Source: Pomphorhynchus laevis (lineage: Eukaryota > Acanthocephala > Palaeacanthocephala > Echinorhynchida > Pomphorhynchidae). Taken from it: 64,000 bases of DNA. Shown piece after piece: positions 1 to 61,366 of the stretch. The stretch covers positions 1-64,000 of the forward strand of contig WNNJ02003101.1 of assembly GCA_012934845.2 (NCBI GenBank), given 5' to 3'. A program made the translations under genes and the position numbers. Position 1 is the stretch's first letter; the number at the start of each line of letters is the position of its first letter. Below the pieces are notes generated by a model that had not been told where the DNA came from, did not search any database, and saw only the letters and a list, made by a program, of their open reading frames with translations.

Positions 1-225
1 TTTACCGTTTGAGATCATGAAGATCGATTGGAATCGAGACTGGTGATCCTTTGATGGATTCTTGTTTAATAATAATTGTCCTGACAATTATGTGGCAAAA
101 AGCGGGCGAAACTAAAACGGTTGTGGCAATGGCGCCGTTAGTAGTCAGGGTGTATGGAATTGGATATCATGAAGGAAGGATTCTGTAGCTGGTTTTCAAT
201 GCGAAAATCACCTCGTGACTAAATT
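1..225. other. unassigned left flank
   Basis: I see no coding signal, RNA gene or repeat here. The 351-bp hammerhead array begins immediately after it. Confidence 0.4.
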
Positions 226-272
226 GCTTTAATCTATATATAGTATGTTTTTCATGTGTATACACTGTATTG

Positions 273-321
273 CTGCAACTGATGAGGCTTCTCAAAGCCA
301 AAACGGTACGCCGTCTTCCAG
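273..321 (+). ncRNA. hammerhead ribozyme, unit 1, defective
   Basis: CTGATGA lies at 279-285 and the GTC site ends at 315. The catalytic GAAA has become AAAA, and the downstream helix I strand is TTCCAG instead of TTGCAG, so one pair is lost. It is probably inactive. Confidence 0.8.
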
Positions 322-627
322 TGTAGAAGCATGGAATTCTCTATATATAGAGAGAGAAAATCAGATAGGTGTAATAGACAGTCCTGGTTGAATCAAACCT
401 TTTATTTATATATTGTTCCTGCGAAGATCCCAGGCAGCGGTGCTATTTCCTTTGTAATCTATTATATTGCTCATTTAGTGATCCCGCTGATGTCTATTAC
501 ACTGAAATGAATTCACTGCATTGTATTGACTTCGAAAGCGCAAGCTACGTCATGCAATTAGCATATAGTGAATTCTTTCTGCTTTAATCTATATATAGTA
601 TGTTTTTCATGTGTATACACTGTATTG

Positions 628-676
628 CTGCAACTGATGAGGCTTCTCAAAGCCGAAACGGTACGCCGTCTTGCAG
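628..676 (+). ncRNA. type I hammerhead ribozyme, unit 2
   Basis: Helix I is CTGCAA (628-633) with TTGCAG (671-676). The core CTGATGA is at 634-640. Helix II is GGCTT/AAGCC with loop CTCA, followed by GAAA. Helix III is CGG/CCG with loop TACG, and the cleavage triplet GTC ends at 670. All core residues are present. A distal TACA/TGTA pairing upstream and downstream could form the peripheral part of helix I. Confidence 0.93.
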
Positions 677-978
677 TGTAGAAGCATGAAATTCTCTATA
701 TATAGAGAAAAGCAGATAGGTGTAATAGACAGTCCTGGTTGAATCAAACCTTTTATTTATATATTGGTCCTGCGAGGATCCCAGGCGGCGGTGCTGTTTC
801 CTTTGTAATCTATTATATTGGTCATTTAGTGATCCCGCTGATGTCTATTACACTGAAATGAATTCACTGCATTGTATTGACTTCGAAAGCGCAAGCTACG
901 TCATGCAATTAGCATATAGTGAATTCTTTCTGCTTTAATCTATATATAGTATGTTTTTCATGTGTATACACTGTATTG

Positions 979-1027
979 CTGCAACTGATGAGGCTTCTCA
1001 AAGCCGAAACGGTACGCCGTCTTGCAG
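979..1027 (+). ncRNA. type I hammerhead ribozyme, unit 3
   Basis: Same fold as unit 2: core at 985-991, C17 at 1021, predicted cleavage between 1021 and 1022. All three helices and all core residues are intact. Confidence 0.93.
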
Positions 1028-1329
1028 TGTAGAAGCATGAAATTCTCTATATATAGAGAAAAGCAGATAGGTGTAATAGACAGTCCTGGTTGAATCAAAC
1101 CTTTTATTTATATATTGGTCCTGCGAGGATCCCAGGCGGCGGTGCTGTTTCCTTTGTAATCTATTATATTGGTCATTTAGTGATCCCGCTGATGTCTATT
1201 ACACTGAAATGAATTCACTGCATTGTATTGACTTCGAAAGCGCAAGCTACGTCATGCAATTAGCATATAGTGAATTCTTTCTGCTTTAATCTATATATAG
1301 TATGTTTTTCATGTGTATACACTGTATTG

Positions 1330-1378
1330 CTGCAACTGATGAGGCTTCTCAAAGCCGAAACGGTACGCTGTCTTGCAG
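1330..1378 (+). ncRNA. type I hammerhead ribozyme, unit 4
   Basis: Core at 1336-1342 and C17 at 1372. Helix III reads CGG/CTG, so one pair has become a G-U wobble; a pairing-compatible change supports the fold. Otherwise intact. Confidence 0.92.
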
Positions 1379-1680
1379 TGTAGAAGCATGAAATTCTCTA
1401 TATACAGAGAAAAGCAGATAGGTGTAATAGACAATCCTGGTTGAATCAAACCTTTTATTTATATATTGGTCCTGCGAGGATCCTAGGCAGCGGTGCTGTT
1501 TCCTTTGTAATCTATTATATTGGTCATTTAGTGATCCCGCTGATGTATATTACACTGAAATGAATTCACTGCATTGTAGTGACTTCGAAAGCGTAAGCTA
1601 CCTCATGCAATTAGCATATAGTGAATTCTTTCTGCTTTTATCTATATATAGTATGTTTTTCATGTGTATACACTGTATTG

Positions 1681-1729
1681 CTGCAACTGATGAGGCTTCT
1701 CAAAGCCGAAACGGTACGCCGTCTTGCAG
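1681..1729 (+). ncRNA. type I hammerhead ribozyme, unit 5
   Basis: Core at 1687-1693 and C17 at 1723, with all helices intact. The unit around it ends early near 1870, but the ribozyme itself is complete. Confidence 0.92.
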
Positions 1730-1870
1730 TGTAGAAGCATGAAATTCTCTATATATAGAGAAAAGCAGATGGGTGTAATATACAGTCCTGTTTGAATCAA
1801 ACCTTTTATTTATATATTGGTCCTGCGAGGATCCCAGGCGGCGGTGCTGTTTCCTTTGTAATCTATATAT

Positions 1871-4650
1871 ATAATGGAATCATGTTAGAAATTCAGTGCC
1901 CTCGTATAAATGCTTTCTGCACCTGAGCTTCGTATAGCATCGTGATGAATTGCTGGTGTCTTTGTAGTAATCACAAAAGCAGTCGAAACGTATCCTAACC
2001 ACTTCATCTGACTTACGATGACTGCTGGGTGGTTAAGAACGTCTCGGAGTGATACATTAGACTGATGGAGCTGATGATCGAAGTTCAGTTATTTAGCAGT
2101 AATATGGATATATATAATTACAGTCCAGTTATTTATATTTGCTAAATCTAAATTTGTATATAACATACTTATCGTAAGTTTCTATATTTTGAAAATTTAT
2201 TCCTTTTGTGTGTTTTAAAAATTATTTTGAGCAAATGCGACTTTCTAAAACGAAACATTTGAATAAGGAAGATGTACAATGCCAGTTTGAATATGTTTAT
2301 TCTTTGTTAGAGTTGTTTACCATGAAGGCTAAGATGATTGCTCACTCCGCCTATAACGTATTCGAGGTCGGATCCCAAGCGAGGTGGTTATACTTAATAC
2401 GGACTACTGGATGGAAGCCTTAATGGTTTAAAATGATTAGAGAAATAATATTTTACTGTTTTACTTATACATTGGTTAAAAATGGACAAACTAAATTTAA
2501 TGAAAATATTTTTTTATTAAAAATATGAAAAAGTATATTTTTATATTAAATATAATAAAATATTTAATATTTTTATAAATATAAAAATATATTTTTATAT
2601 ATTTTAATAATGATCAATTCTGTGTTATATACGTAATATTTTTTAATATTTTGTATGATAATGAACTTGGTGGTCGAAAGCTCAACAATTTTTATTCAAT
2701 AAAAATACTTCTCATGTCTATAATGTTCTCCGATAATCACCGCTTTAATCTAAAAAAACATGAATGCAATGTTCACAAAAATATTTTAATAATGTTTTAA
2801 AAATATTTTAACATTGGCTACAATGGGTGATTTCGGAATTTAAATTCTCATAAATGAAGTCAAAGATCAATTTATCTTCTCTGCTTATTACGTCTGCATA
2901 TATCAAATTTACGAACTATGAAACGATTCGAATCAATCAAACAATATTCAGACAACAGTTTGGGGCTAAAAGGAAAGAATTGAATAAGCATAGATGGAGA
3001 AAATAATATCAAATCATAAAATATCCGAACAGATCCTATAGCATACTTATTTGGAGGGTAATTCAAGCTGGTTGACGTTCTGCCCATTAAAATACTTTGA
3101 TTTTCACTTAACGAGCACTGAATACCAATATGCGTTAGTAACAAGTTAAGTTCAGCAGAAGCACGAGTGAATTGTAGATATAATGAAAAGTTTATATCAA
3201 GATATCATAATTATAAGTATTGGTCATAAATAAATTAAGATTTCCCCATTTATTATTCGAAATTGGTCATTTAAATGTGTTCTTGATGAGGAAACAAGCT
3301 GTTGCGCCTGTTTTAGTCGTGAATGGCATTGTCTAATACCATATTGAACACTTTGGTAATAGTTGTATTCACAGCCTCTTTCTGCTGGTGCGTATTTTTG
3401 TTATTTGATTTTGAAGTTGTCTGAGATCATATTCACTTAATCGTGAATTCATACATTCATACATTAGTTGGAGTTTTCATATTCCTCTTGTGCGATAATA
3501 GAACAGACAAATAGCAAGTCCACAGTGTGTAGTTGTCGTAAGCACATTAATGTCACGCTACTTAATCCAAATATTGTCGGAATGAATTTCTGCTGAGCAG
3601 TAATGTCGATGGTCTCCAATCACACATATTACACCAAATAATTATACCATATTTACACCGCTTGAACAAATATCACAAATTATGAGTGTATCAAATTTCA
3701 TTATCTATGAATAACGCACCGTTATCGGATCATTTACGACAGTAAACGTAATCCTTCGCAGCAATTGGTAAGCCTGATATGCCGATACCATGATTAACGA
3801 CAATATTGGCTATATTTTCTTTCTAAGTTTGCAAATCTTTTAATCTAAGGGTTATTTGATATAAAAACGAAAGCTGATAGGTTTTATTCAGTAGATCTAC
3901 AAAACATAAAATACGATTGCACCTATTAAATCAATAAAGTGCATAACAATATATAGAAAACATCAATTTCCACAGGTATTACTCTTCCATTTAGACAAAA
4001 GGATGTTTGTTACGTATAGAATATCGTATCGGTGAAGTATATTCTTCGTAGCGTAGTATTTTATAAGGTACGAATCCTATTGTAGACTCCGTATCTAGTA
4101 GTATATAGTCACTAAATTGTTTCTTCGATATATCATCCTCCAAACTCGTTATCATTAGTATTCGACTCGTGTCTTGTTTCATTTCGTCGGTATTGAACAC
4201 ATTCGAAATTGAGTAAAAAGCTAGATAATTCATTGATACTCAATCTGTTTCCTTATTGTCAAAATACATCTTTGCTTAGTTAGGGTTTTCGTCACCTAGC
4301 TCTATTTCCTCAACAAGACTATTTTATTTTGATCATGGCCTTGAGTCCTTCAATAATACTAGACCTTGCTCTTACAGCGAATCAGGCAAAGTTATTCCAT
4401 AAGCAGATCTGTTTCTAAATCCATATAGTCTTTTATGAGGGTTCACGTTCGTAGTGGTTCACATTCGTAGCAGTGCGTATCGGATTCAATGTGCACAAAA
4501 GTCTGCGTATCGAATTCAATGTGAAGGACAATACCCAGTGCCACTTGTCTATTTTTACACTGTGATCGGCCAAAGCAATCTGAACACATTTCCAAATAGT
4601 TCCATGGAATTTATCACATTAATCGTTGCCACATGGATTATAAGGGTTCT
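1871..4650. other. no recognisable gene; AT-rich intergenic DNA
   Basis: 2450-2830 is nearly pure A/T. Short ORFs at 2208-2423 (+), 2872-3144 (-) and 3991-4233 (-) show no family motif and I do not support them as genes. No repeat could be made out. Confidence 0.5.
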
Positions 4651-10453: not shown

Positions 10454-10924
10454 CTACGTATGTAAATAAAAATCTTTTGTAAATTGAAACGTTTCGGTAG
10501 GTGACGAATGTGGAACTTGACTTTTCTTTCCGTAGACTGGAAAGAAAGATCTTGTTTTGTAAATGGGCTCACCCATCCACGTTCCCGTAACCCATCCCGG
10601 TACATCTTTCATAATTCTATTTTCTTCATCACGGGCTTTTCGCATATAGATTAGGTTCATTCTATCCACTTCTGCCCATAGGATTGGTTCTATACATATA
10701 CGACCTTCATCCATTTCCATCATGGAATTCGCAATCATCTGTTTTGTTTTCTGGATTCTTTTAACATCATACAATAAGCTAATAGTTGCCAAAAGCCCTG
10801 CAGAATACCAAACCTTTGGGGATAACCGACGACCGCAAACTCTTGCTGTGTTCAAAATCTTATAGCCATCCTTAGGTGCTATTTCTTGCTTAAACTTATT
10901 TACCTGCCGAGAAGACGATGACAT
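10454..10924 (-). CDS. NDUFA13: NADH dehydrogenase (ubiquinone) 1 alpha subcomplex subunit 13 (GRIM-19)
   Basis: Accessory subunit of respiratory complex I in the mitochondrial inner membrane. The 156-aa ORF has the family layout. An N-terminal FKQEIAPKDGYK segment (residues 11-22) matches the usual KQ-x-x-PPxGGY start. One membrane helix spans about residues 38-54, followed by a long charged helix. The signature region is RICIEPILWAEVDR (75-88) and DEENRIMKDVPGW (99-111), then GTWMGEPIYKT (114-124). Family length is usually about 145 residues, so this is slightly long at the C-terminus. It is a single open frame without visible introns, flanked by retroelements; an intact retrocopy cannot be excluded. 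The lack of any disabling change argues for a functional gene. Confidence 0.9.
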   Translation of the reverse strand: MSSSSRQVNKFKQEIAPKDGYKILNTARVCGRRLSPKVWYSAGLLATISLLYDVKRIQKTKQMIANSMMEMDEGRICIEPILWAEVDRMNLIYMRKARDEENRIMKDVPGWVTGTWMGEPIYKTRSFFPVYGKKSQVPHSSPTETFQFTKDFYLHT

Positions 10925-11149: not shown

Positions 11150-11940
11150 TTGGAACAACAACGTACATTGACGAAGTTGATGGAAAGTCTGCAAACTCGC
11201 GAAGATCAAAACAATGATTGCAATATACCAGTGTTTCAACATTTAAATGCAGATATTGATAAATGGGTGAATTACGGGATTCAACTAAAGAATTTCTTGG
11301 GCATGCATAGACTTGATTCAGCAATGCGACAAGGACAATAGTTTTTCGTATTTTGAAAGTAAAGATATTACTTTTGAGATGATTATTAAAGAACTGAATG
11401 GTCATTTTAAAAAGCCGATGCATGTAGTTGCGGCCGGATTAGCATTTACTCAATGTCGACAAATAGCCAACAAATCATATAAGTATTGGATAGCGGAAGC
11501 TAGGGGACTGACAAGTAAGTGTTCGTTTTTCGATAGATCCATTCAATCCGAACAACAAGCAATCTACGACAGATTAAGAGATCTGGTAATTGTGTATCCT
11601 CCAATTGAGAAAATACCAATGAGTCTATTACGATTGGATAATCCAACGTTAGACGATGTATTCAGAATTGCTTCTAATTGGGAAATGCCACAAGATACCA
11701 TGCACTTATTAGCGACAGAAATCAGCTCGAATTATACAAATGAACCGAAAAGAGATATCAAAATTTCGAATGTTCATAAATTAAGCGCTAGACGTAGATC
11801 ACACTGGAATAGAAATTCTATGGAACGTTGTACATGATGTAATCGTACAAATCATGTGAATGAGCAACAGTGTTAGGCAAAGATCGTAAAATGTCATCGA
11901 TGCGTTAAGATAGGTCATATTCGTCTATGCTGCAAGGTAG
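11150..11940 (+). pseudogene. gypsy copy 1 gag
   Basis: The N-terminal capsid-like part (11150-11341) shifts frame near 11330 into the longer 11313-11837 ORF. That ORF has the pattern YKYWIAEARGLTSKC (about residues 58-72) and LLRLDNPTLDDV. Two CCHC zinc knuckles follow a stop: CNRTNHVNEQQC, and CHRCVKIGHIRLCC at about 11890-11935. It binds RNA and forms particles in intact relatives. Here it is broken by at least two stops. Confidence 0.85.
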
Positions 11941-12412: not shown

Positions 12413-13660
12413 ATGTTGATCAAATTTGAGGACTTATTCAACGAAGATCTTGGAAACATTAAGGATTTGGAGGTTAAGCTACAAGTTAAACCATCGGCTG
12501 TTGCGCGATGCATTCCGGCTCGTCGCGTACCACTGTCATTAAAGCTAAAAATTGAAAAAGAGTTAAAGCGCCTTTTAGCGAATGGACTATTAGAGCAAGT
12601 TGAATCAAACTATAATTATATTGATTGGGCAAGTCTTATTGTAACTGTGCTTAAAAAAGATAACTCAATAAGAATGTGTGCTGACTTTAAGACGACAATT
12701 AATCCGTATTTGAAATGTGATTGTTTCGAATTGCAACAGTTGAGGAGATGCTGAGCAAAATCGACGGCACCTTGTATTCCGTATTGGATTTAAGAGATGC
12801 ATATTCACAAATGAAAGTCCATCAATACTCTCAAAAATATTTAACCATTTCGACATACTTCGGATTTTATCAATATCTTCGGTTATCTTTTGGGTTATCA
12901 ATAGTGCCAATTTTGTTTTAACGTTATATGAATCAATTACTTGGTGCGATTCCGGATATCGCAGTTTATCTGGATGATGTTGTAGTCACAGGAAAAACGC
13001 GCTTAGAACATATTAACAGACTTTGAAGTGTAATGAAACGATTATTGGATGCGGAATAAGAGAAAAACGTGAAGTGTTTATTTCTTCATGAACACGTTCT
13101 AGATAGAGAACGGTAAAAACTGATGAAGAGAAAGTTGACACTATTCAAAATATTGATACACCATCAAATCCTAAAGAACATCGAATGTTTCTGGGGACGG
13201 TAGGGTTTCTTAAACGCTTAATTCCTCATCTGCGGTCACAGTGTCCTGATTTGTATTCGCTGACTGGTGTACGAACGGATTAGAACTCGATATATCGACA
13301 TCAAAGCCAATTTGAATTAGTCAAACAAAATATGTTAAAACATAAAAGTTTGATACCATATGATGGGAAGAGTAACTTAAAGCTGTATTGTTATGCTTGT
13401 GAGAAGTGCTTAGGAGCCGTACTGCTTCAAGAAACTAAAACAACGGTTATTTGCCAATTGCATACGCGTCAAGAAAATTGAGTGGTGCGGAAATAAATTA
13501 CTCGCAAATTGACCGGGAGGCACTTGCTCTAATATTTGGAGTCAACAAATTTCGATATTACCTATTAGGTCGGAAGTTCATACTCATCAGTGATCACATA
13601 CCCAGATTTCCATCAGTGATCACATACCCAGATTTCCATCAGTGATCACAAATATCCTTT
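12413..13660 (+). pseudogene. gypsy copy 1 reverse transcriptase and RNase H
   Basis: RT begins with a CIPARRVPLSLKLKIEKELK segment. It continues through SVLDLRDAYSQ (motif A, about 12780-12810) to the YLDD catalytic motif at 12967-12978 in another frame. RNase H is recognisable by [20 protein letters not shown] at about 13455-13520. Many frame breaks. Confidence 0.85.
13585..13650 (+). repeat. 26-bp tandem duplication inside RNase H
   Basis: Copies of CATCAGTGATCACATACCCA and its continuation start at 13585, 13611 and 13637 (2.5 copies). The insertion is private to this dead element and disrupts the end of RNase H. Confidence 0.85.
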
Positions 13661-17705: not shown

Positions 17706-18870
17706 AAAGTGGGAATAAGAAGACCAGTGCAAATTGCAGTCGTTGGTTGATTTGGTCGTACTTACTGTTTTGTTAATTATGTTATCTAGTTTTTTGATCG
17801 GTTGTATTTTTTAATACAACCCTTATTTATTTATAGACGCTTGTGTTTGTTTCTACTAAAAAAAATACCATTGAGCGTTTGATTTGCAATGTTGAAAACA
17901 ACAAAATAATACCTCCTTGTCAATTACTGATCGTGTTGTCCGATCATTTCCTTGTCACTCTTACTCTTACTCGTTCCCATTCTACTTCTCCCCCTTCACC
18001 ATTATCCACACCAAGTCAACCCTGGAAACTTCTCGATATCCATATTCTCTGCACAGCCTTACTCAATTCTTCACTCGTTTCACTTCCTCTTAACTATCTC
18101 TCTCCTGATGATCTCTTCATTTTGTTTAGTTCTGAACTTACGAACACCCTAAATAACCTTCTGCCTATTCAACCACGACGTTTTCAGCGATCGCGCCATG
18201 CTCCCTGGTTCGATTCAGACTGTAGTCTTTCTAAGCGTCGGCTCCGGCACTCTTTTCGTGGTTTAATCGCTTTCTTAAACGTTCTCCAACCTCACTAACT
18301 CTAAATCTCCGTGCTTCCTATCTTTCTCTTCGCCGTTTCTATCTCATTCTTATGCGAACTAAAGGTACTCTCTTTTGCTGAAATCATCTCGAGTCGTCTT
18401 CTAACTCTAAATCTCATTGGAAAATCCTAAACTCAATTCGTTCACAATCATCTACACTTTGCAACATAAATCCTGATGAATTTTTTTCTTATCTGCAATC
18501 TAAGCTATCTAATTTAATTTCCGTTCTACCCATATGCCCCTTGTATCCTCTCAATTCTTTAAATACTTCCCTCCCAGAACTATTCCACCTTATTCTCGTT
18601 TCGTCTGGAGAAGTTTCTTCGATTCTTCTGTTAATACCTAATAATACCTCTCCTTCTGACCCAATTCCCACCCACTTGCTTAAAAAAATCTGATCATCTA
18701 TCTCACCCTTCCTAACCACTTTAAATGCAAATATATGAACATATATCATTACATCATTATACTCTAAGACTCTCTGGCATACTTTTAACTCAATCATTGC
18801 TCGTTCCTCTTCGCGGTGCAACATCAATGCCCATGATTATTCGTCGTTTCTCCAGACTAAAGTATCCACG

Positions 18871-19800
18871 TTGCTCTCTCACACCCCGGTCTCCATCCTA
18901 TCCCACTCTGCCCCGCCTAGCCTCATCCTTCCGGAACTCTTTCATCTTCTCCCTGTCTCACCTACAGAAGTATCATCTGTCCTCATGTCCTTGCCCAACA
19001 AAACCTCACCTGCCGATCCCCTGCCTACTCACATATTAAAATTTATATGCTTATCGATATCCCCATTTCTCACAACCTTGTTTAACTCATCTATCCGCAG
19101 TCGTATCTTCTCTTCACACTATAAATCTGCAATCGTTCGTCCAATCCTTAAGAAACAATCACTCGACCCCTTCCTTCCTTCTAGTTATCGCCACATTTCA
19201 CTACTCCCTACTCTTTCTAAGCTCTTAGAACGCATCATCTTAATACGGATCAACGCTTTTCTCTCCTCATCCAATTTGTACCCTCCTTTCCAATCCGCTT
19301 TCCGCTAAATCACTCCACAGAAATCGCATGCATGAAAGTTTACAAGGACTTATTCATTTATCGAGACAAGGCTCTATATAGTGTTCTCATCTCCCTCGAC
19401 CTCTCCTCCACATTCGATATTATCGACCACTCCGTCCTCCTTTCTCGCCTTCGTTATGATTACGGCTTTTCTTCCTCCTCCGTAGCATGGTTTGCCTCAT
19501 ATCTATCCGACCGTTCCTTTCGCGTCTGTTCTAATTCATCATCCTCCCCTCCCATCCCTATTTTTTGCGGGGTCCCACAAGGTTCAGTCCTAGGTCCCCT
19601 GCTTTTCTCTATTCTGCTTGGCGATCTCTCTCCGTTTATCAAACCTTACTCCTTTAAAATCATGCAACACGCGATGACATCATCATCTATGCTCATGAAC
19701 ATGCACATCGCATTCACGATATCGGCATTTCTGCCTCCAACTGTCCTTATTCTATCTACAAACGTCTCTCCAATCTCCATCTCCTTCTAAACCCCGACAA
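18871..19800 (+). pseudogene. LINE-B reverse transcriptase
   Basis: Recognisable L2/CR1-type motifs: LPNKTSPADPLPTHILK, LPTLSKLLERIILIR, SLDLSSTFDIIDHSVLL (motif A) and FCGVPQGSVLGPLLFSILLG. The YADD-like motif falls in a frame-broken stretch near 19660-19700. Compared with the copy at 45 kb, both carry independent damage. Confidence 0.87.
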
Positions 19801-20140
19801 GTCCAAAAAATGTAGATCCTCCCCAGTAAACCAAACATATCTCCTCCCACTGTATCTTTTGCCTCATCGATCATCCCCATAGTCTACAATCTCATTTTCT
19901 TAGGCTTCCATTTCGATATTCACCTTTCCCTTAAACCCTTCCTCCGTGACAAGGTCCGCTGGTCTAACTTAATTATCCGTGACATCCGCCGTATCCGCCC
20001 CCTTATCGACTTCCGTTCTTGTATGTCTCTTCTTTCATCGCTTCTTTTTCCCTAAAATCGATTACTGCCTTAGCCTTTTCGCCAATTCTCCAAAATCCAT
20101 CATCCTACCCCTACAATGAATAATCAACACCGCCGTTCGA

Positions 20141-20500
20141 GTGCTCTTTCGTCTCAGTCGCTTCGATTACACATCCACATATTTTGCCCAACTCTCCTGT
20201 CCCACCATCCACAACCGCGTACAACTCAGACTTCTCCTAGTAACTTTTCGTCTCATCGCTGTCGGTTCCCCATCGTTCATCAACCTTCCTTTCTTAGACG
20301 ACACTCGCCCCACCTCGCTATCGCTGCGTTCCCGTAATTCCCTCTTACTCCACGTTCCCAATTACTCCAACAACTATGGTCTCCGATCCTTCCTCGTCGC
20401 CGCCTCACTCGCCTGGAATCAACTCCCTCTCGACGTCCGCCGCGCCCCCTCCTTTATCACATTCAAACACCTCCTCCGTTTACACCTTCTCGACACATGA
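20141..20500 (+). pseudogene. LINE-B C-terminal domain
   Basis: A 119-aa open stretch with a VRLRLLL/FRLIAVGSPSFINLPFL-type segment. It ends LVAASLAWNQLPLDVRRAPS...FKHLLRLHLL, the conserved tail of L2/CR1-group RT proteins, with the true stop at 20498-20500. Confidence 0.8.
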
Positions 20501-20582
20501 TTTACATTTTTGTTTTGTTGTGGTCATGTAAGCGTGCGCTGGCACGCATTTGCCATGTTAAAATAAATCTTTTTTTTAATGT

Positions 20583-21143
20583 ATGACTCTCATATCTTCT
20601 CTCATTTTCTCAAGACTTGATTACTGTCTTAGTCTATTTTCCAACTCGCCTAAAGCAACTCTTCTTCCTTCACAACGCAACATCAAAGCAGCCGTCCGAG
20701 TTCTCCTCCGTCTTCGTCGTTTTGATCATACATCCCACCATATTGTTTCTCTCGATTTGCCTACCATTTATTGCCGTGTTCAAATTCGTCTTCTTATCAT
20801 TGCTTTTCGCCTTATAACTTTTCATACCCCTTCATCTATCAACCTTCCTTTTTTCGACAATTCTCATCCTGTTTACTGTTCCTTGCGTTCCAGTAATTCC
20901 CTTCTTTTACATGTCCCAAACTACTCTACCTCTTTTGGCTTCCGCTCCGTTGTGGCTGCTCCTCTTCCGTGGAATCATCTCCCCATTCATATCCGCCAAT
21001 CAACATCAATGCCGTGCTTCAAACGCCAAATCCAATTCCATTTCAACAATTAACTAATTAATCTGACTTTTTCTGTGTTCTTTTTAGTTATCATGTAAGC
21101 ATGCAGTTGGCACGCATTTGTTACGTTAAATAAATTAATATTA
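20583..21143 (+). mobile_element. LINE family B, 3' fragment
   Basis: A second, shorter copy directly after the first. It encodes only the C-terminal domain (20583-21053, ending with SVVAAPLPWNHLPIHIRQ...FKRQIQFHF) and the same 3' tail GGCACGCATTTGTTACG. Either a 5'-truncated insertion next to the first copy's T-run or a tandem remnant. Confidence 0.85.
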
Positions 21144-21632
21144 ATGAGACATGTGGAAATTGAGCCTGTCTTAAAAGAAGTCGGAAGATCATTCGAATTC
21201 ACAAATCCATCAACGACAAAGGATCGCTGTGCGCGCTTAGATATTGTGTGTTCAGGCCTATTCGACGGTGTAATGGAGTGGACGTTCTTCAATGTCACTA
21301 TACATAATCCCTTTGCTCCATCTTACATTAGCCAAAATCCGGCAAACATATCTGAATTTCACGAGAATAGGAAGCGCGCAAAATACATGGAAAGAGTAAT
21401 CAACATCGAACATGCCTCGTTCATACCGCATGTATTTTTGGCATTGGGCGGAGTTTCAAAGAAAGCTGGATCAGTGATGAAACTGCTCGCACAAAAAGAA
21501 TCTCAGGGAACTCGGACATACACAGAGGTTATCAGTTCAATGAGAAAACGAATAGCCATCACGCTGGTTAAGGCTAACTCATGGAGTTTTCAATGTAACA
21601 ACAAGTTTGTTAACAATGCTGCTCATTGCTAA
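21144..21632 (+). CDS. mobile-DNA-associated protein, PD-(D/E)XK-like (tentative), 162 aa
   Basis: A single open frame starting 1-2 bases after the LINE-B tail, so its natural 5' end may have been removed by that insertion. The pattern ARLDIVCSGLFDG, TFFNVTIHNPFAPSY, FHENRKRAKYMERVINIEHASFIPHVFLALGGV, then YTEVISSMRKRIAITLVKA matches a domain I remember as a recurrent unannotated ORF in transposon-rich animal genomes. There the second block usually reads FFDVRV. Its fold looks like PD-(D/E)XK nucleases. The N and T here, in place of the usual D and R, would remove an active-site residue. Function is unproven. It lies just upstream of the 360-bp hammerhead satellite. Confidence 0.5.
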   Translation: MRHVEIEPVLKEVGRSFEFTNPSTTKDRCARLDIVCSGLFDGVMEWTFFNVTIHNPFAPSYISQNPANISEFHENRKRAKYMERVINIEHASFIPHVFLALGGVSKKAGSVMKLLAQKESQGTRTYTEVISSMRKRIAITLVKANSWSFQCNNKFVNNAAHC

Positions 21633-21672
21633 GTTTTCTTTAGCAACACAGTTGAACAATCATTTAAAAAAT

Positions 21673-24272
21673 ACGCTGATTGTAGTGTACAGTGATGCTG
21701 ATAGGATTCAAACAACCACACGAGGATAATATCAAACCGACCAGTTAAGAATAATGGCTCGTGTATGCAATATTCACAATAGTAAAAAGACAGCTTACGG
21801 TTTACTGTCCAGTGAACATTTCGTATAAGAACGGAATAAAAAATCGGTGTGTGGTGGATTCGAATTGCGAATATTAGTTACCGCCCACACCAAATATAGA
21901 ACACATTAATTGTGTAATTTGGTATATAAGCCAAATATAAACCAGCATTTCGGCGACAAGGAATCAGCAGAAGCAGTAAAAGGACCGAAACACGAAATGT
22001 AGGCGTGGGCTCACTGCTGATGAGGTCCACCCACGCTGATTGTAGTGTACAGTGATGCTGATAGGATTCAAACAACCACACGAGGATAATATCAAACCGA
22101 CCAGTTAAGAATAATGGCTCGTGTATGCAATATTCACAATAGTAAAAAGACAGCTTACGGTTTACTGTCCAGTGAACATTTCGTATAAGAACGGAATAAA
22201 AAAATCGGTGTGTGGTGGATTCGAATTGCGAATATTAGTTACCGCCCACACCAAATATAGAACACATTAATTGTGTAATTTGGTATATAAGCCAAATATA
22301 AACCAGCATTTCGGCGACAAGGAATCAGCAGAAGCAGTAAAAGGACCGAAACACGAAATGTAGGCGTGGGCTCACTGCTGATTAGGTCCACCCACGCTGA
22401 TTGTAGTGTACAGTGATGCTGATAGGATTCAAACAACCACACGAGGATAATATCAAACCGACCAGTTAAGAATAATGGCTCGTGTATGCAATATTCACAA
22501 TAGTAAAAAGACAGCTTACGGTTTACTGTCCAGTGAACATTTCGTATAAGAACGGAATAAAAAATCGGTGTGTGGTGGATTCGAATTGCGAATATTAGTT
22601 ACCGCCCACACCAAATATAGAACACATTAATTGTGTAATTTGGTATATAAGCCAAATATAAATCAGCATTTCGGCGACAAGGAATCAGCAGAAGCAGTTA
22701 AGCTATGAAACACGAAATGTAGGCGTGGGCTCACTGCTGATGAGGTCCACCCACGCTGATTGTAGTGTACAGTGATGCTGATAGGATTCAAACAACCACA
22801 CGAGGATAATATCAAACCGACCAGTTAAGAATAATGGCTCGTGTATGCAATATTCACAATAGTAAAAAGACAGCTTACGGTTTACTGTCCAGTGAACATT
22901 TCGTATAAGAACGGAATAAAAAATCGGTGTGTGGTGGATTCGAATTGCGAATATTAGTTACCGCCCACACCAAATATAGAACACATTAATTGTGTAATTT
23001 GGTATATAAGCCAAATATAAGCCAGCATTTCGGCGACAAGGAATCAGCAGAAGCAGTAAAAGGACCGAAACACGAAATGTAGGCGTGGGCTCACTGCTGA
23101 TGAGGTCCACCCACGCTGATTGTAGTGTACAGTGATGCTGATAGGATTCAAACAACCACACGAGGATAATATCAAACCGACAAGTTAAGAATAATGGCTC
23201 GTGTATGCAATATATTCACAATAGTAAAAAGACAGCTTACGGTTTACTGTCCAGTGAACATTTCGTATAAGAACGGAATAAAAAATCGGTGTGTGGTGGA
23301 TTCGAATTGCGAATATTAGTTACCGCCCACACCAAATATAGAACACATTAATTGTGTAATTTGGTATATAAGCCAAATATAAGCCAGCATTTCGGCGACA
23401 AGGAATCAGCAGAAGCAGTAAAAGGACCGAAACACGAAATGTAGGCGTGGGCTCACTGCTGATTAGGTCCACCCACGCTGATTGTAGTGTACAGTGATGC
23501 TGATAGGATTCAAACAACCACACGAGGATAATATCAAACCGACAAGTTAAGAATAATGGCTCGTGTATGCAATATTCACAATAGTAAAAAGACAGCTTAC
23601 GGTTTACTGTCCAGTGAACATTTCGTATAAGAACGGAATAAAAAATCGGTGTGTGGTGGATTCGAATTGCGAATATTAGTTACCGCCCACACCAAATATA
23701 GAACACATTAATTGTGTAATTTGGTATATAAGCCAAATATAAACCAGCATTTCGGAGACAAGAAATCAGCAGAAGCAGTAAAAGGACCGAAACACGAAAT
23801 GTAGGCGTGGGCTCACTGCTGATGAGGTCCACCCACGCTGATTGTAGTGTACAGTGATGCTGATAGGATTCAAACAACCACACGAGGATAATATCAAACC
23901 GACAAGTTAAGAATAATGGCTCGTGTATGCAATATATTCACAATAGTAAAAAGACAGCTTACGGTTTACTGTCCAGTGAACATTTCGTATAAGAACGGAA
24001 TAAAAAATCGGTGTGTGGTGGATTCGAATTGCGAATATTAGTTACCGCCCACACCAAATATAGAACACATTAATTGTGTAATTTGGTATATAAGCCAAAT
24101 ATAAACCAGCATTTCGGAGACAAGGAATCAGCAGAAGCAGTAAAAGGACCGAAACACGAAATGTAGGCGTGGGCTCACTGCTGATTAGGTCCACCCACGC
24201 TGATTATAGTGTACAGTGATGCTGATAGGATTCAAACAACCACACGAGGATAATATCAAACCGACCAGTTAA
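21673..24272 (+). repeat. 7.2-unit tandem satellite (about 360 bp) with rearranged hammerhead modules
   Basis: Unit starts (ACGCTGAT) lie at 21673, 22033, 22394, 22753, 23113, 23475, 23835 and 24197; the last is about 76 bp long. Units are nearly identical, differing by single bases and one TA insertion. Each unit contains a hairpin built from GGTGTG/CACACC arms with an inner ATTCG/CGAAT stem, the palindrome ACACATTAATTGTGT, a TATATAAG box (21923-21930 in unit 1) and three strands that can form a hammerhead. The 67-aa minus ORF repeated in five units is a by-product of periodicity, not a gene. Confidence 0.93.
21982..22055 (+). ncRNA. rearranged (inter-unit) hammerhead modules, unit 1
   Basis: Order 5' to 3': helix II 3' strand GGACC (21982-21986); GAAA (21987-21990); helix III 5' strand ACAC (21990-21993) plus GCGTGGG (22003-22009); helix I 3' strand TCACTG (22011-22016); CTGATGA (22017-22023); helix II 5' strand GGTCC (22024-22028); helix III 3' strand CCCACGC (22030-22036) plus GTGT (22045-22048); cleavage residue A at 22049; helix I 5' strand CAGTGA (22050-22055). 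All core residues and three helices exist, but the CUGAUGA strand lies in the loop of helix III. It can therefore only engage the GAAA and cleavage strands of another unit. Same modules in the other units: CTGATGA-type strands start at 22378, 22737, 23097, 23459, 23819 and 24181. Confidence 0.78.
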
Positions 24273-24980
24273 AAATAAAATCTTATAACAATTATTTATA
24301 ATTATTTACTATTTATTATTTAATTATTAAATTTTAATTTATTGATTTAGAATTATTATTCTTTTTATTTATTTATTTTTATTTATTTATTCTTTATTTT
24401 ATAATTATATTAAATAGGTAGACTCAGTTAGCTGAATTGGCTTGCTTCTTTTTAACTGACCCAAGCTAAATTTGCTTAAAAAAGCTTTTAAGTAATAAAA
24501 TATGTCAATTTAAGAAGAATATTCTGCTCCTTTTGATTTATACTTTACATGCGAAATTATACAATATTATAATAGATTAATCAAATTTTTCGCAAATCAA
24601 GCACTAGTTCTGATTTGATATAGAGTAACAATGTGGTTTGAATTGCCGTTTGATCTATCAAACGACTATGACCCCAACATATATAATGGCATAGTGTATG
24701 GCAAAACGGCATTAGCAAATAAAAAATATTACTGTAAATTTTGATGTGCGTTTTGTATCGTTGATCAAATAAAACGAATGCTAAGGGAAATTTTAATATC
24801 AATTATAATTGATTAAAAAATGTAATCTAATTTATTTCAATTAATCGTCGGTTAAGAAGTTGATACTGTTATAGTTTAAGCTAGCTATAAAATTATCGGC
24901 GATAAAACGCATAGACGTTTCACGCAAAAGAAATCGTCACAGAGAGCATCTATTTTATAACTAACATGCTATAAAATATT
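24273..24980. other. AT-rich spacer with (TTTA)n
   Basis: 24273-24420 is A/T-rich with TTTATTTATTTA runs. The rest shows no gene; a 73-aa minus ORF at 24581-24802 has no recognisable features. Confidence 0.5.
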
Positions 24981-25055
24981 TGCTAGTCCTCCTCTGCATC
25001 CAGCAGTGAGAGGGAACTGGCACTGATGAGTCATAGTGATGACAAAAAGGCATTC
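24981..25055 (+). ncRNA. partial hammerhead, first copy, defective
   Basis: Contains helix I, CTGATGA (25023-25029) and helix II, but the GAAAC after helix II is AAAAA. The upstream helix III strand and the cleavage site are absent because the element starts exactly there. Confidence 0.8.
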
Positions 25056-25280
25056 GTCATTCTTTCGCGTCGGGTTTATATGATTACTAAAAATTCACGC
25101 GGAATGGTATCATCATTTAAGAAATAGAAGTAAGCCGATATTAAGATACCTTTCGCCGTAACAAGCAAGTGCTTGTGCAAATGATCCAATTTGGTGAAGC
25201 TATTGTAGTGCTAATTCAGCACTCTAGATGATGTTACTAGAGATTTTCTAGTACATCATGCACTTGATTCATTCATTGAT

Positions 25281-25359
25281 TGCCGTCTGCTAGTCCTCCT
25301 CTGCATCCAGCAGTGGGAGGGAACTGGCACTGATGAGTCATAGTGATGACGAAACGGCA
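25281..25359 (+). ncRNA. type III hammerhead ribozyme
   Basis: Helix III is open: TGCCGT (25281-25286) with ACGGCA (25354-25359). The cleavage triplet GTC ends at 25287. Helix I is TGCTAGT (25288-25294) with ACTGGCA (25323-25329), 7 bp with one G-U. CTGATGA is at 25330-25336. Helix II is GTCAT/ATGAC with loop AGTG (25337-25350), and GAAA is at 25351-25354. All conserved core residues are present. A competing 8-bp hairpin, ATGACGAA/TTCGTCAT, could act as an alternative fold. Confidence 0.87.
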
Positions 25360-25395
25360 TTCGTCATTCTTTCGCGTCGGGCTTGTATGATTACT

Positions 25396-26205
25396 ATTAA
25401 AAATTAGTAATTAAATTATAAAAATTACAAGCATAAACTACACAGACAATATCACATATGAAGGAATCACTGAAGATACAAACATTATCATAATAGTGAA
25501 CAAGCGTTGATTCATCGATCTCATTTAAAATTATTATTGAAGTTTTTAATTATCCTAATTTATAGATATTTATCGTTTTAGCAAAGACCCAAGCTTACAA
25601 GTTAATAAGAAAGGTAAACCTCATGTGATAAAGTACATAGAGGTGACATAACAGAAACAAAATTAGAGAATACTTATTTTGTCTTAGTAAATCTTCCACC
25701 TGAAGATTATATATCAAAATGCATTCAACCTGATGTGATGTACTGAAGAAAATGATTTTAGAGCAAAAATGACTCTTCATATTATTTTCTTGGTCAAATT
25801 TAAAAAAAAATATTTCAAATCTGATGCTATCATATCGATCTTGATATGTAAGGTCGTAAAACGTTTATTGTTGGGAAGATTATGGAAAAGATATAGAAAC
25901 CATCAGTATTTCCTTTTTGTATACTGTCCATTGAGAGGCTAATTTTGTTTACATCAGGTTTTTATTTTGTCGGCTGTGTAATATCCGCACTTGTCGTGAC
26001 ACTAAGTTTGACGTTCGCAACAATAGAACTCTATATATGTTTGTTATCAGACAATTATATAAGGATTTATAGCATTTGAAATATTATAATATATGATATA
26101 AGACAATATAACAATTACGAGTTAGCATATTATATATAAGAATTAGTCAAATCGGCGTTGCTCGAGATTGTCGTGATGACAATTCTTTCAAAATATTAAT
26201 AGATT
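25396..26205. other. no gene recognised
   Basis: AT-rich sequence without motif. A 61-aa minus ORF at 25595-25780 looks random. Confidence 0.5.
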
Positions 26206-43225: not shown

Positions 43226-44170
43226 TGTGTTACCATGTTGTTGCTTGTCGTTGGACTATAATCAATTTTCCGCTTATTACTTGTATAGGCTTTTAGGCAC
43301 TAGCATAATTTATAATGTGTCACTATATGCGTTACATATCTTTATGATTAATGTGCTACAAAAAATAACGTTTAATTTTTTACCTTAATGATTTTTTTAA
43401 ATTTTGAAAGCAGTGTTATAAATGTTTTTACCCAAACGTTTGATAATAGAATGATAAAGTACATACTAAAATATTAAGGTATTATTAGCATCATTAAATA
43501 ATATATTTAAATTTTGATACAAATTAAAATATACATTAATATATTTAAATTTTGATACAAGTACAAATTAGGAAAATAATAAGTGTACATAAAATTTAAA
43601 CTCTATTTAATTATATACACTGAAAGATGAAATTAATGTGCATGGTAATTGATAAACGATGAGTCAGCTAAGGGGCCAAAGGGCATAGCAGGACATGCAA
43701 AGTTAAATTAGAGTTTTAATGCTCGGATTATATTTGGTTCATACATATTCTTATTCTTATTATTACATGCAACAACTTAAGAGCCAAGGGCTCTTAAGTT
43801 GAATAAAAACAGCCTAAAGTGAAAACGTAAAAAATAATCGAAGATAACTGTTAGATTAAAGCCTCTTGACGTAGTCTGCGCTTGAAAGAAAATTTAATGG
43901 AGCTGTTGATTATTATGGCAGGCGCATAGTTTCAGAGTCGTTTGATTCAATCACATATAGTCGCAGTCTTTTTGGTAGTCGATAGAGATCTTTGTAAACA
44001 TTATTCATGTTCGCGAAGACCAGTTGTGTTACTTAAATTAAATGTACATCAACAGGTATGCTCAGATGTGGTAAGAGTCATTCACATGAACATCAAATCA
44101 GCCAGCTTGAGTGAAATTTTAATTGGACATACTTGAAGTGATTCTATACGTTCGACATAAGGCAGCGACA
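43226..44170. other. AT-rich spacer, no gene recognised
   Basis: Contains a direct repeat of ATATATTTAAATTTTGATAC (about 43500 and 43540) and the hairpin listed next. A 64-aa ORF at 43942-44136 has no family features. Confidence 0.5.
43773..43801. repeat. 13-bp inverted repeat, 3-nt loop
   Basis: CAACTTAAGAGCC and GGCTCTTAAGTTG flank AAG. It could be a transcription-end hairpin or simply a chance palindrome; an AATAAA follows at 43803-43808 on the plus strand. Confidence 0.8.
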
Positions 44171-44221
44171 GTGTTAAAAAATGATTTATTTTTTACGAGG
44201 CAAATGCGTACCGGCGCAAGC

Positions 44222-45965
44222 TTACCTGATCACAAAAACCAAAAGACGAAAATCTAAATTATGTATCGAAAAGGTGGGAACGGAGGCGGTATTTGAATAT
44301 GATAAATGAGGGACCGCGACGGCCATCGATAGGGAAATGATTGCAGGCGAGTGGGGCGGCGACGAGGAAGGATCGGAGTCCGTAATTGTAAGAGTAATTG
44401 CGAACGTAGAGTAAGAGGAAATTAGGGAACGCAGTGATAGAGAGGTAGGGCGAGTGTCGTTTAAGAAAGAAAGGTTGATGAACGATGGAAAGCCGACAGC
44501 AATGAGACGAAAAGTTACGAGAAGAAGGCGGAGTTGTATGCGGATGTGGATGATGGTCCAGGAGAATTGGGCGAGATATGTGGATGTGTGGTCAAAGCGA
44601 CGAAGACGTATGAATACTCGAACGGCGGAGTTGATGATGCGTTGTAGGGGTAGGATGATGGATTTTGGAAAATTGGCAAAAAGGCTAGTGCAAGGGAAAA
44701 TAAACGATGAAAGAAGAGACATACAGGAACGGAAGTCGATAAGGGGACGGATGTTACAGAGAATTAAGTTAGACAAGCGGACCTTGTCGCGGACGAAGGG
44801 TTTAAAGGAAAGGTAATCATCGAAATGGAATCCTACGAAAATTAGATTGTGGACTATGAAGATGATTGATGAGGCAAAATATGCATGGGGCGGAAATATG
44901 TTAGATTACGGGGAAGGATGCACATTATTTTGGACTTGTCTGGGTTTAGAACGAGACGAAGATAAGAGAGACGTTTGTATATAGAAAAATACAGTTGGAG
45001 GCAGAAATGGCGATATCGTATATGCAAAGGGCAAGTGCATGAGCATAGATGAGAATGTCATCGGCGTATTTCATAACGTTAAAGGAGTAAGGTTTGATAA
45101 ACGAAGAGAGATCGCCAAGTAAAAGAGATAAAATCAGGGGACTTAGGACTGAACCTTGTGGGACCCCGCAGATAATGGGGATGGGAGGAGAGGATGATAA
45201 ATTAGAACAGACGCGAAAATAACGGTCGGATAGATATGAGACAAATCATGCTACGGAAGAGCAATAAAAGTCGTAATCATAACGAAGTCGAGAAATGAGG
45301 ATGGAGTGATCGACGATGTTGAAGGCGGAGGAGTAGTCGAGAGGAATGAGAACACTATATAGAGCCTTGTCTCGAGAAATGAGTAGGTTGTTGTAAACTT
45401 TCATGCAGGCGATTTCTGTGGAGTGATTAGAGCGGAAAGCGGACTGGAAAGGAAGGTACAGATTCCATGAAATTAGATAAACGTTGATATGTATTAAAAT
45501 AAGGCGTCCTAAGAGCTTAGAAAGTGTAGGGATGAGTGAAATGGGGCGATAGCTAGAAGGAAGGGAAGGGTCGAGCGATTGTTTCTTAAGGAGGGGACGA
45601 ACGATTGCGGATTTCCAGTGTGAAGGGAATATACGACTGCGAATGGACGAGTTAAACAAGGTGGTGAAGAAAAGGGATGTCGATGAGCATATGAATTTAA
45701 GTATAGGGGTAAGCAGGGGATCGGCAGGTGCGGTTTTGTTTGGCAATGATATAAGGACAGATGAGGCTTCGGCAGGTGAGACAGGAAGAAGATGAAAGAG
45801 TTTCGGGAGGATGAGGCGTGGCGGAAAAGAATGGGATGGTGACGGGGTGTGAGAAAGAGCAACGTGTATACTTTGGTTCGGATAAATGACGAATAATAAT
45901 TGGAATTGATGTTGCAAGGCGAACAGGAGCGAGAAAGAACTGAGTTGAAAGTATTCCAGAGACAC
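44222..45965 (-). pseudogene. LINE-B reverse transcriptase and C-terminal domain
   Basis: A 239-aa open stretch (45246-45965) contains LPNKTAPADPLLTPILKFI, YRPISLIPTLSKLLGRLIL, FRSNHSTEIACMKVYN and motif A LIPLDYSSAFNIVDHSIL. Then GVPQGSVLSPLI-like and YADD-like motifs appear in other frames (about 45150 and 45065). The 184-aa stretch 44222-44776 is the C-terminal domain. Confidence 0.85.
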
Positions 45966-46329
45966 CTGGAGTTGAATGAAGTGATGATTTTATGTTGCCA
46001 GTAGTTGAATTTGGTACGTAGTAGTTAATGCTCTTCTCCGGTATCATGCTCTTCTCCGGAGAAGAGCAAGATAGGAATCACGTAGAAACGGAGTGAGCGA
46101 GCGGATATCACGTCTGAGAGAGCGGTGATATACTCGAAAAGTATGTATGAGTCGACGCTTTGAGAGTAGGCATTTGATGTCAAACCATGGGGCACGGTGC
46201 AAGCGACGGTGATGGTGAGGCTTAAAAAGCAAGAGAATATCGAGAGTGGATGTGAGTTCAGAGTCGAAAAGAAAGACGAGATCATGAGGAGATGATGATG
46301 TTATTGTGCGAGAAGATAGAGACGATTTA

Positions 46330-47310
46330 AGTAATGCGGAACGGAGAATGAGGAGTCAAGATTTCTCTAAGAGCGACGTAGAATGGTAGGTGTGTGAAAC
46401 GGAAAGTTATTGGAAGTGAGATCAAGGGTGACGAGAAAGTGATCGGATAGACCAGGATCGGAAATGTACAGTGAGGTGTATGCATCAAAACGATCCGGGA
46501 CAGCGATGATGTCGAGTGCCCCGCCAAGGATATGTGTGGGGGCAATGGAGATGAGTTTTGTAATTGTAGTTGGATAGAATGTTGATGAACCGGATTGAAT
46601 CCGTGGAAGAGGTTTGGTCTAGGTAGATGTTGAAGTCACCAAGAACGAGTGAAGGGATGGTGCACCAAGAACAGTGGAACATGAGATCAGCGAGTTTGGC
46701 AAAAGATAATGAGATAAGAGCAGATGGACCAGGGCGGTATACAATAGCGAGATCCAAAATGATCGGGCTAGAAGAACGACAAGTCAGCAATTCAAAAGAG
46801 CAAGAACTGAAAGGGAAATGATTTCGCGAAGATATGCGAGGTGACGGGCGAATGCGACAATGGGTCATGATTAAAGAATTTAGAAGAGGATGAGCTGAGG
46901 GTGAGGGCGGATTCGACTAGTGAGCAACCAGCAGAGATCAGACGGTGAATAAAGACTTCGTCGGAAGCGAAGTGTCAGGATTCGGTGAGACAGAAGAGGT
47001 CGATGGTTTGCTTGGTGAAGAGGTTGAAAATGAGATCATATTTATGAAGAATATATCTAGTGTTGAGGAGGGCGATGCGCAAACCGTGTGTGATGGTGAT
47101 AGGGGATTGCGGAGAAGACACATAGAGTAGATGGAGCGCCATCGAATTTCGGGGCGAGTGTGAACAACTTGAAAATTTCCGTCTATGTTTCTGATAAAGA
47201 GAGATGTGTCGTAATTTTCTTCGCGACGGTGTTTTTTTGATGAGGGCATAGGCGAGTTGAGCGATTTCGGAGGCAGTGCGATCCTGGAAAATGCGAGTGG
47301 ATGAAGATGA
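46330..47310 (-). pseudogene. LINE-B endonuclease domain
   Basis: APE type: RIALLNTRYILHKYDLIFNL, then LFCLTES (catalytic E, about 46980), LVLGDFNIYLDQT (about 46630), and a final DxGLSDH-equivalent near 46450. Frame changes at about 46975 and 46500. Confidence 0.82.
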
Positions 47311-48289
47311 CATGATTTTAAATCGTTGGGAGAAGATAAAGGACGCGTAAGAGCGATGCTTGAAAACAATTTTTAGGGGAAAATGCGAAGAATTAGATTA
47401 AGAAGATTTGTTTAAGCGGATGAATGCGACAGAAGAGATGTCGTTGAAAAAGAATGGATTATCCGTAGGAACAAAAGACAAGATGATGAATATGAAGGCG
47501 GACACATCGTGGTCGAGACGTGCTTGTGGAGATAAGAAGGTGGAAGTGGTGATATTAGTGACGATAACGCAATGATCGCGAGAAGGAATTCTTTTCCGTA
47601 AAGGAGGACGAGTGACGAGAGTGGGTAAGGTCACGATAGGATAGCTGGAATTTGAGGATATGAAGGGAGTAGGTTCGACAGCGGGAGACAAAGAGGATAG
47701 GGATAATATAGAGTGTGGCAAGAGATGTTAGGAAATGTTATGAGTAGAAGGATCGTGGAGGTTGGTGGAGGTGATTTTGATTTATGGATGTAGTTATTGA
47801 GAAACGAGACAGAAGGGACGGGACGGTGGTGCGGGGAGTAAAGATTATATGGGATGGGAAGTGTATATAGTGGCATGAACAGTGAGTGGAGAACGGACAT
47901 TAGAAACGACAGGGATAGTTTGAGTGGACGTGTTGGAGGTTGATATGTGTTTATGGGAGATGTTGCGGATTAGTTTGTTGGAACAAAATTCAGGTAGAAA
48001 AAATCCACTATAGTAAGTATTTAGTACTTAATACTACAAAGCAAGGTAGTTAATAAACGATTGAGCATAGATATGCAAAGAAGGATTTATTATTAGTGAT
48101 CGATAGTATAATTGAAGGTAAACTATTTTGATAATTTTGATATTCTGTAAGTATATAAAGTTTTTGCTTGGCAAATGACAGTAAATGAATTTCTTTGTAG
48201 ACAGTAGTATTTTTGCAAATCTGTTATAGTTTACCAAGGTGCTATTATATCGAAAAAGTACAAGATAAATCACGCCAAGCCATAGCTCC

Positions 48290-61287: not shown

Positions 61288-61366
61288 CGTAGTGTTGCCG
61301 GGTACTCATTGGGCCCAATTTTTATTAGTCTATGCATGCCCAATTACTATTGGGCATGCATAGACT
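61263..61366. repeat. three adjacent palindromes at the repeat/gypsy junction
   Basis: Arms CCAATGAGTACCCGGCAAC (61263-61281) and its complement (61294-61312); ATTGGGCCCAAT (61308-61319); arms of 18 bp (61327-61344 and 61349-61366) around TACT. The first is made of hammerhead-repeat sequence and the last of gypsy gag sequence. Confidence 0.97.

Follow-up and report, generated by a model that had tools for sequence, protein, structure and literature searches.

The window, that is, the whole 64,000-nucleotide stretch of the acanthocephalan Pomphorhynchus laevis analysed here (assembly GCA_012934845.2, contig WNNJ02003101.1, forward-strand positions 1 to 64,000), holds tandem arrays that carry hammerhead ribozyme sequences (Table 1). 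The clearest cellular gene among the ten open reading frames scanned with Pfam is that of GRIM-19 (NDUFA13), at 10454-10924 on the reverse strand. Searched against the protein collection, the GRIM-19 protein matched only itself; among solved structures its best matches are the Drosophila chains 8esw and 8b9z. Two regions, 18001-22000 and 44001-48000, lie over reverse-transcriptase-like open reading frames and have opposite GC skew (peaks of -0.49 and +0.49); these are probably inverted copies of one LINE. The hammerhead sequences are described here by their blocks, of which C carries CTGATGA, G carries GAAA and S carries the cleavage site. The blocks of the 351-bp array near the start of the window follow the canonical type I order (CGS), and this array scores 27.1-28.7 bits against the Rfam model HH9, below the gathering threshold of 52. 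The arrays F2 and F3 lie on opposite strands and have unrelated letters, and their blocks run in the identical order GCS.

Table 1. Hammerhead arrays and modules in the window. Coordinates on the reverse strand are given in reading direction for the parts of the F3 module.
Feature	Position	Strand	Basis
351-bp tandem array, canonical type I (CGS) hammerhead	225-1872	+	letters, Rfam
Array F2, 7.2 tandem copies of a 360-bp unit with an alpha-group GCS hammerhead	21673-24278	+	TRF, letters
F2 first full module, proposed stem IV 5' strand ATCAGCA	21963-21969	+	letters; fixed-offset test
F2 G block, stem II 3' strand GGACC	21982-21986	+	letters
F2 G block, GAAA	21987-21990	+	letters
F2 G block, stem III 5' strand CAC	21991-21993	+	letters
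F2 joining segment GAAATGTAG, alike across three alpha families	21994-22002	+	
F2 7-bp stem closing the CTGATGA loop, 5' strand GCGTGGG	22003-22009	+	alpha pairing counts
F2 C block, stem I 5' strand TCACTG	22011-22016	+	letters
F2 C block, CTGATGA	22017-22023	+	letters
F2 C block, stem II 5' strand GGTCC	22024-22028	+	letters
F2 7-bp stem, 3' strand CCCACGC	22030-22036	+	letters; alpha pairing counts
F2 S block, stem III 3' strand GTG	22045-22047	+	letters
F2 S block, U16.1 and A (H17), predicted cleavage 22049/22050	22048 and 22049	+	
F2 S block, stem I 3' strand CAGTGA	22050-22055	+	letters
F2 proposed stem IV 3' strand TGCTGAT	22056-22062	+	letters; fixed-offset test
Array F3, 2.4 tandem copies of a 364-bp unit with a beta-group GCS hammerhead	60412-61292	-	TRF, letters, descriptor
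Intact F3 module, whole	60521-60594	-	letters, descriptor
F3 module, GCAACC-GAAA	60594-60585	-	
F3 module, stem III 5' strand (begins CGAC)	60584-60571	-	
F3 module, CATTCTA-CTGATGA-GTGTTGCC	60568-60547	-	
F3 module, stem III 3' strand (ends GTCG)	60544-60531	-	
F3 module, TT, predicted cleavage 60529/60528, then TAGAAGTG	TAGAAGTG at 60528-60521	-	

An earlier note on this DNA, made from the letters of the 360-bp array, had reported the strand order GAAA, CTGATGA, cleavage site, with helices I, II and III of 6, 5 and 4 bp and an additional 7-bp stem. Both the order and the helices were confirmed in the array units, and the cleavage position that it had named, 22049/22050, coincides with the site predicted for the first full module. 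Seven F2 units in the window have all blocks. GAAA and the cleavage site (UH) are kept in all seven, CTGATTA replaces CTGATGA in three, and GCTAT occupies the position of GGACC in one. The CTGATTA variants lie at 22378, 23459 and 24181, in units 2, 5 and 7, a pattern that looks as if a longer unit had been duplicated. A single F3 module within the window retains both CTGATGA and GAAA (coordinates in Table 1 counted by hand from the letters); among the F3 copies listed, the site triplet is mostly GUC.

Copies with the GCS order sort into two groups, alpha (F2, F2b and F2c) and beta (F3, F3b, F3c and F3d, the last resting on a single locus, L108), with repeat periods of 354-398 bp and a GC content of 0.40-0.45 in the three units folded as circles. 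DNA searches of the assembly returned at least 236 matches for F2, 189 for F3, 151 for F2b, 146 for F3b and 41 for F2c. When representative stretches of these five families were compared with blastn, F2, F2b and F2c matched one another over 82-84 nt only, and F3 matched F3b over 116-126 nt only, in each case the ribozyme stretch.

Run on both strands of 262,018 bases, namely the window together with the stretches L019-L038, a descriptor of the GCS order gave 69 sites; note that 20 of these 21 stretches were picked for holding the 360-bp family, which biases the sample. First-order Markov copies of the same bases gave 0.05 sites per replicate at score 13, 0.05 at score 14 and none higher (20 replicates). 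When all six block orders were allowed, these bases yielded 69 GCS, 3 SCG and 4 CGS sites, with controls of at most 0.17 per order (12 replicates). Since most of the 69 sites copy one family and the sample is biased to that family, the independent count is five families.

The assembly as a whole (249,390,268 bases in 3,242 contigs) contains 2,441 exact matches to the alpha 5' motif and 3,866 matches to the beta pattern, with no match to the control of either. A family-neutral pattern with G before C had 7,695 matches (98 for the reversed-pattern control), and the canonical pattern with C before G had 4,352 (control, 7). The G-then-C pattern covers the G and C blocks, with the S block lying outside it, and the rows inspected were the first of each list; by these G and C pattern counts, the scrambled order would be at least as common as the canonical one in the assembly. 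The core letters CUGAnGA and GAAA are present in most copies examined, with UH tallied in the window units alone. CTGANGA is found in 83 of 89 F2, 44 of 54 F3, 12 of 17 F3b, 20 of 27 F2b and all nine F2c copies, and the G-block strings in 72, 48, 12, 12 and nine of them, respectively. Both elements are held by 67 of the 89 F2 copies (CTGANGA with GGACCGAAAC), the rest being broken, and by 41/54 F3, 9/17 F3b, 10/27 F2b and 9/9 F2c copies; the 54 F3 copies include 31 distinct ones, and loci L010, L015 and L018 overlap. Rfam hammerhead models matched neither the F2 nor the F3 array, at E values up to 10 or at gathering thresholds. Over the whole genome HH9 gave one weak match (30.8 bits) and is a poor guide to abundance. 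A scan of IMG/VR with the alpha motif returned three matches, none of them followed by CTGANGA, and these were set aside as chance.

Pairing in the alpha group is retained while the letters change. In the family-level strings of F2, F2b and F2c, 22 of 22 pairs form in each, and ten of these pairs differ on both sides between the majority letters of the families. Ordered swaps of partner strands between families reduced pairing in 14 of 24 cases (4/6 in stem I, 2/6 in stem II, 2/6 in stem III and 6/6 in the 7-bp stem). Per-copy counts were made over distinct copies (43 F2, 27 F2b and 6 F2c) by script, because MAFFT had put gaps inside two stems of alignment A1. Against 500 shuffles, which ignore kinship and are applied to structures drawn from the same sequences, 430 of 456 cells were paired in stem I (shuffle mean 332, highest 351), 334 of 380 in stem II (mean 322.7, highest 330), 288 of 304 in stem III (mean 271.7, highest 280) and 497 of 532 in the 7-bp stem (mean 422.9, highest 442).

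A partner-blind test used 20 sites chosen by their 5' strand alone from the alpha-motif matches listed. The 7-bp stem had 114 of 140 cells paired (partner-shuffled mean 102.7, highest of 2000 shuffles 113) and stem I had 109 of 120 (mean 86.4, highest 102); stem II had 82 of 100 (mean 74.8, highest 83), so some shuffles equalled it. CTGANGA was intact in 12 of the 20. One site did not fit (L093) and two fitted poorly (L088 and L092), and three sites belonged to a new alpha subfamily with the 7-bp stem GCGTAGG/CCTACGC.

In the beta group, an F3/F3b alignment of seven chosen sequences had 97.1% of 175 cells paired, and sliding the partners by 1-3 columns left 28.6-49.7%. Two-sided changes occurred in 4 of 25 pairs, a number matched by 100 of 500 shuffles; the number of paired cells, the number of cells changed on both sides and the covariation score were each reached by none of the 500, these shuffles again disregarding kinship and using structures taken from the sequences themselves. 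F3c and F3d retain the stems with other letters, with 10/10 and 7/7 pairs in distal stem III and 4/5 and 5/5 in stem I. Distal stem III pairs in full within each family (7 to 11 pairs), and partners taken across families form between 3/7 and 6/7. Stems I and II of this group each contain a 1-nt bulge.

Letter predictions for the beta group were written down before the partner letters were viewed. The predicted stem II strand GGCAGCC was found in six of seven loci; across 20 loci, stem II had 110 of its 120 pairs formed. Predictions for stem I were right at the fourth letter in 8 of 12 cases and at the fifth in 3 of 12; its predicted letters paired in 21 of 40 cases, as high a count being reached in 335 of 5000 shuffles, which is not significant. 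F3c breaks the predicted fifth stem I pair, and another register of the bulge, noticed afterwards, gives seven pairs. Taken together, the letters of the families support stems I, II and III by covariation, less strongly for beta stem I. The scrambled order looks real and selected because related families preserve the pairing through matching changes. Its recurrence in other families of the assembly with compensatory changes, seen in both descriptor and pairing counts, was one of the outcomes whose absence the earlier note had named as grounds for refutation, and it supports the order.

The hairpin of both groups has the CTGATGA block as its tip loop and the G and S strands at its foot, the three blocks together spanning about 75 nt. 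Stem III of F3 has 14 pairs plus an A-U pair, its hairpin has a predicted energy of -27.4 kcal/mol, and its seven distal pairs have probabilities of 0.99-1.0 in two modelled circles. Counting the A-U pair, stem III has 13-15 pairs and bulges of at most 2 nt in F3, F3b, F3c and F3d; 2-nt linkers separate it from the C block in F3, F3b and F3c. In a variant of F3 (L016, L117 and L118), an insert into the 3' half interrupts the long stem III and may provide a hinge; the variant is common, such an insert occurring in at least 19 beta-pattern matches among the matches listed. The alpha hairpin consists of four pairs and seven further pairs, with an internal loop of 9 and 8-9 nt between them. The earlier note had counted GCGTGGG/CCCACGC into a rigid stem III; in F2 an internal loop of 9 and 8 nt, which could serve as a hinge, separates it from ACAC/GTGT. 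As to the monomer circles, which by the earlier note would be protected, the modelled 360-nt F2 circle is predicted to fold otherwise, with a pair probability of 0.02 for the 7-bp stem.

An outer stem IV directly after the stem I strand is suggested by the letters of F2, F2b, F3 and F3b. At a fixed offset, 30 pairs summed over five families were equalled in none of 20,000 shuffles, the offset having been picked post hoc and F3 and F3b being related; F2c contributes only 4 pairs. When the position was left free, shuffles did as well in 55 of 1000 cases for F2, 419 for F2b, 968 for F2c, 468 for F3 and 803 for F3b, none of which is significant. The stem IV proposed for the beta group shares the letters GTG with outer stem I. 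Stem IV would connect stems I and II on their outer side, and it would keep a cleaved unit from coming apart at its ends. In about 40% of known hammerheads a pseudoknot connects these two stems (PMC3088659). The type-SGC and type-CSG hammerheads described in the consulted sections of Eckert et al. (2023; PMC10085705) have a pseudoknotted order, and a helix joining their outer stems I and II resembles the proposed stem IV; they differ in block order, and nearly all come from metatranscriptomes (SGC) or metagenomes (CSG).

The statement of the earlier note that known hammerheads run C, G, S is not fully accurate, given that non-circular orders were published in 2023, including a GCS candidate that cleaves in vitro (PMC10085705). 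In the parts of Eckert et al. used here the order is named type GCS and has one natural candidate, GCS-1 from Caballeronia peredens, which has an in vitro cleavage rate of 0.014 per min, is without covariation and is of "biological significance unclear" (PMC10085705). Its block order is that of F2 and F3, and those parts credit it with all the expected features. GCS-1 is one bacterial sequence, whereas the present case involves several eukaryotic families, two-sided changes, tandem repeats and thousands of pattern matches; in addition, the stem III hairpin here displays the CTGATGA block in its tip, a comparison made with the published sections on GCS-1 apart from loop and stem lengths (PMC10085705).

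The nearest setting is that of metazoan retrozymes, which in the portions of Cervera and de la Pena (2020; PMC7229834) drawn on here carry type I (CGS) hammerheads in tandem units 150-450 bp long and have low GC and many dispersed copies. The GCS repeats share the tandem unit size, a GC content under 50% and the dispersal. The 225-1872 array fits this description in block order as well, whereas the F2 and F3 arrays are GCS instead; the hammerhead types named in those portions are I, II and III (PMC7229834). Judged from searches of one open-access library, the F2/F3-type repeats appear to be the first family-level case of the GCS order. The papers since 2022 in that library that mention non-circular order, hammerhead ribozymes and permutation together are Eckert et al. 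and two on the ARTEM tool.

The avocado sunblotch viroid has a dimeric hammerhead. Vertebrate retrozymes likewise have dimeric hammerheads (PMC7229834), and a hypothetical one has been described for repeats of Aedes aegypti (PMC3088659). In these systems cleavage between two units is favoured, as it would be in the docking model set out below. The Aedes dimer, in the relevant section of its source, pairs loop III between units in the canonical order (PMC3088659), whereas here a catalytic strand would come from the loop of another unit.

As a whole, the repeats are best explained, and in our view probably so, as retrozyme-like elements with a GCS hammerhead, for which docking of hairpin tip to hairpin foot is the proposed mechanism. 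The parts of this reading differ in firmness. As far as letters can carry it, the comparisons establish the GCS order, the conserved core letters and the preservation of stems I-III by matching changes across families, and a real, selected ribozyme that cleaves itself in some form is very likely. That units work mainly by docking into one another is about as likely as not, with higher expectations for the main beta families and lower ones for the alpha group and the beta insert variant. In this explanation, multi-unit transcripts would undergo self-cleavage at UH, and the units set free would then be circularised into small RNAs, in the manner of animal retrozymes. Each unit would be a hairpin with stem III as its stem, open G and S strands at its foot and the CUGAUGA strand at its tip. 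The tip of one unit would dock into the foot of another, either the adjoining unit of its own transcript or a unit on a separate molecule, forming stems I and II and thereby a complete hammerhead, and two units could serve each other.

An active hammerhead has its stem III directed away from the other two stems. A loop on a 15-bp stem III therefore could not reach its own foot without much opening, and docking is likeliest for the main beta families because their stem III is of that order of length. The earlier proposal of a fold workable only between repeat units is partly supported: the 13-15 pairs and small bulges of these families favour it, whereas the alpha group and the beta insert variant have a possible hinge and may fold on themselves. 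A single F2 unit may fold on itself because the internal loop could serve as a hinge, and since at least 19 of the listed beta matches carry the stem-breaking insert, docking was weighed lower and self-folding higher. Consequently, a strictly obligate two-unit hammerhead, in which the tip-loop strand has no target but the foot of a different repeat and the RNA would thus cut multimers and other molecules but spare single circles, is a tentative proposal that we would put somewhat below an even chance. If true, the G-C-S order would be a built-in multimerisation sensor, at work in thousands of repeats of a single genome.

The principal rival to docking is a GCS hammerhead that folds in cis. Its CTGATGA loop would close onto the G and S strands of its own unit in a double pseudoknot, stems I and II would be kept next to each other by the 7-bp stem and stem IV, and stem III would be reduced to a few core-adjacent pairs. 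GCS-1, the single published example in the consulted text, cleaves as a short transcript at 0.014 per min (PMC10085705), and the roughly 75 nt with the G, C and S blocks are the stretch common to the families. The joining segments of the alpha group, 8-9 nt long and similar in three families, have a rough contour of about 50 A, which would be long enough, and the insert of the beta variant breaks the long stem III. However, in F3, F3b, F3c and F3d the long stem III would have to open in large part, and its pairing is preserved across the beta families despite their differing letters. We regard this possibility as less likely than not, yet of real weight.

The repeats might also be relics, rearranged from canonical hammerhead repeats, in which the ribozyme is dead and the stems persist by descent. 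Broken copies are indeed common, as the CTGATTA of three window units in seven and the missing GGACC of one illustrate, but families that are otherwise unmatched in blastn keep their stems by two-sided changes, which simple decay would not produce, and the matches listed include arrays whose units are nearly identical and have the core letters intact. This origin is accordingly improbable. More improbable still is chance complementarity, or a hairpin with some other role such as binding of reverse transcriptase or ligase. Stem III and its loop form a predicted stable hairpin that could be a protein site; against this, two groups with unrelated sequences both retain CTGANGA, GAAA, UH and the hairpin-crossing stems I and II, and the Markov copies average about 0.1 sites in 262 kb as against five families.

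The significance of the repeats lies in the standing of their block order. Among the six possible hammerhead orders, G-C-S is the one whose biological relevance Eckert et al., in the sections drawn on here, called unclear. The repeats give it family-level covariation, thousands of pattern matches and a tandem, retrozyme-like setting, and they suggest a route by which a ribozyme could cut multimers yet spare its own circles. Current RNA family models miss the GCS class, so more of it may lie in animal genomes.

Further elements were noted near the arrays. A second hammerhead of canonical order occurs at about 24980-25420 on the forward strand in two copies 307 bp apart; the complete copy has its site at 25287, CTGATGA at 25330 and GAAA at 25351, and the other has AAAAA in the GAAA position. 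Weak Rfam matches to retron msr RNA (31-33 bits; gathering threshold 52) lie at 12570-12629 and 62625-62684, also on the forward strand. Both follow, by about 0.7 kb, near-identical open reading frames (11313-11837 and 61309-61890), and they are probably two copies of one retroelement and not retrons.
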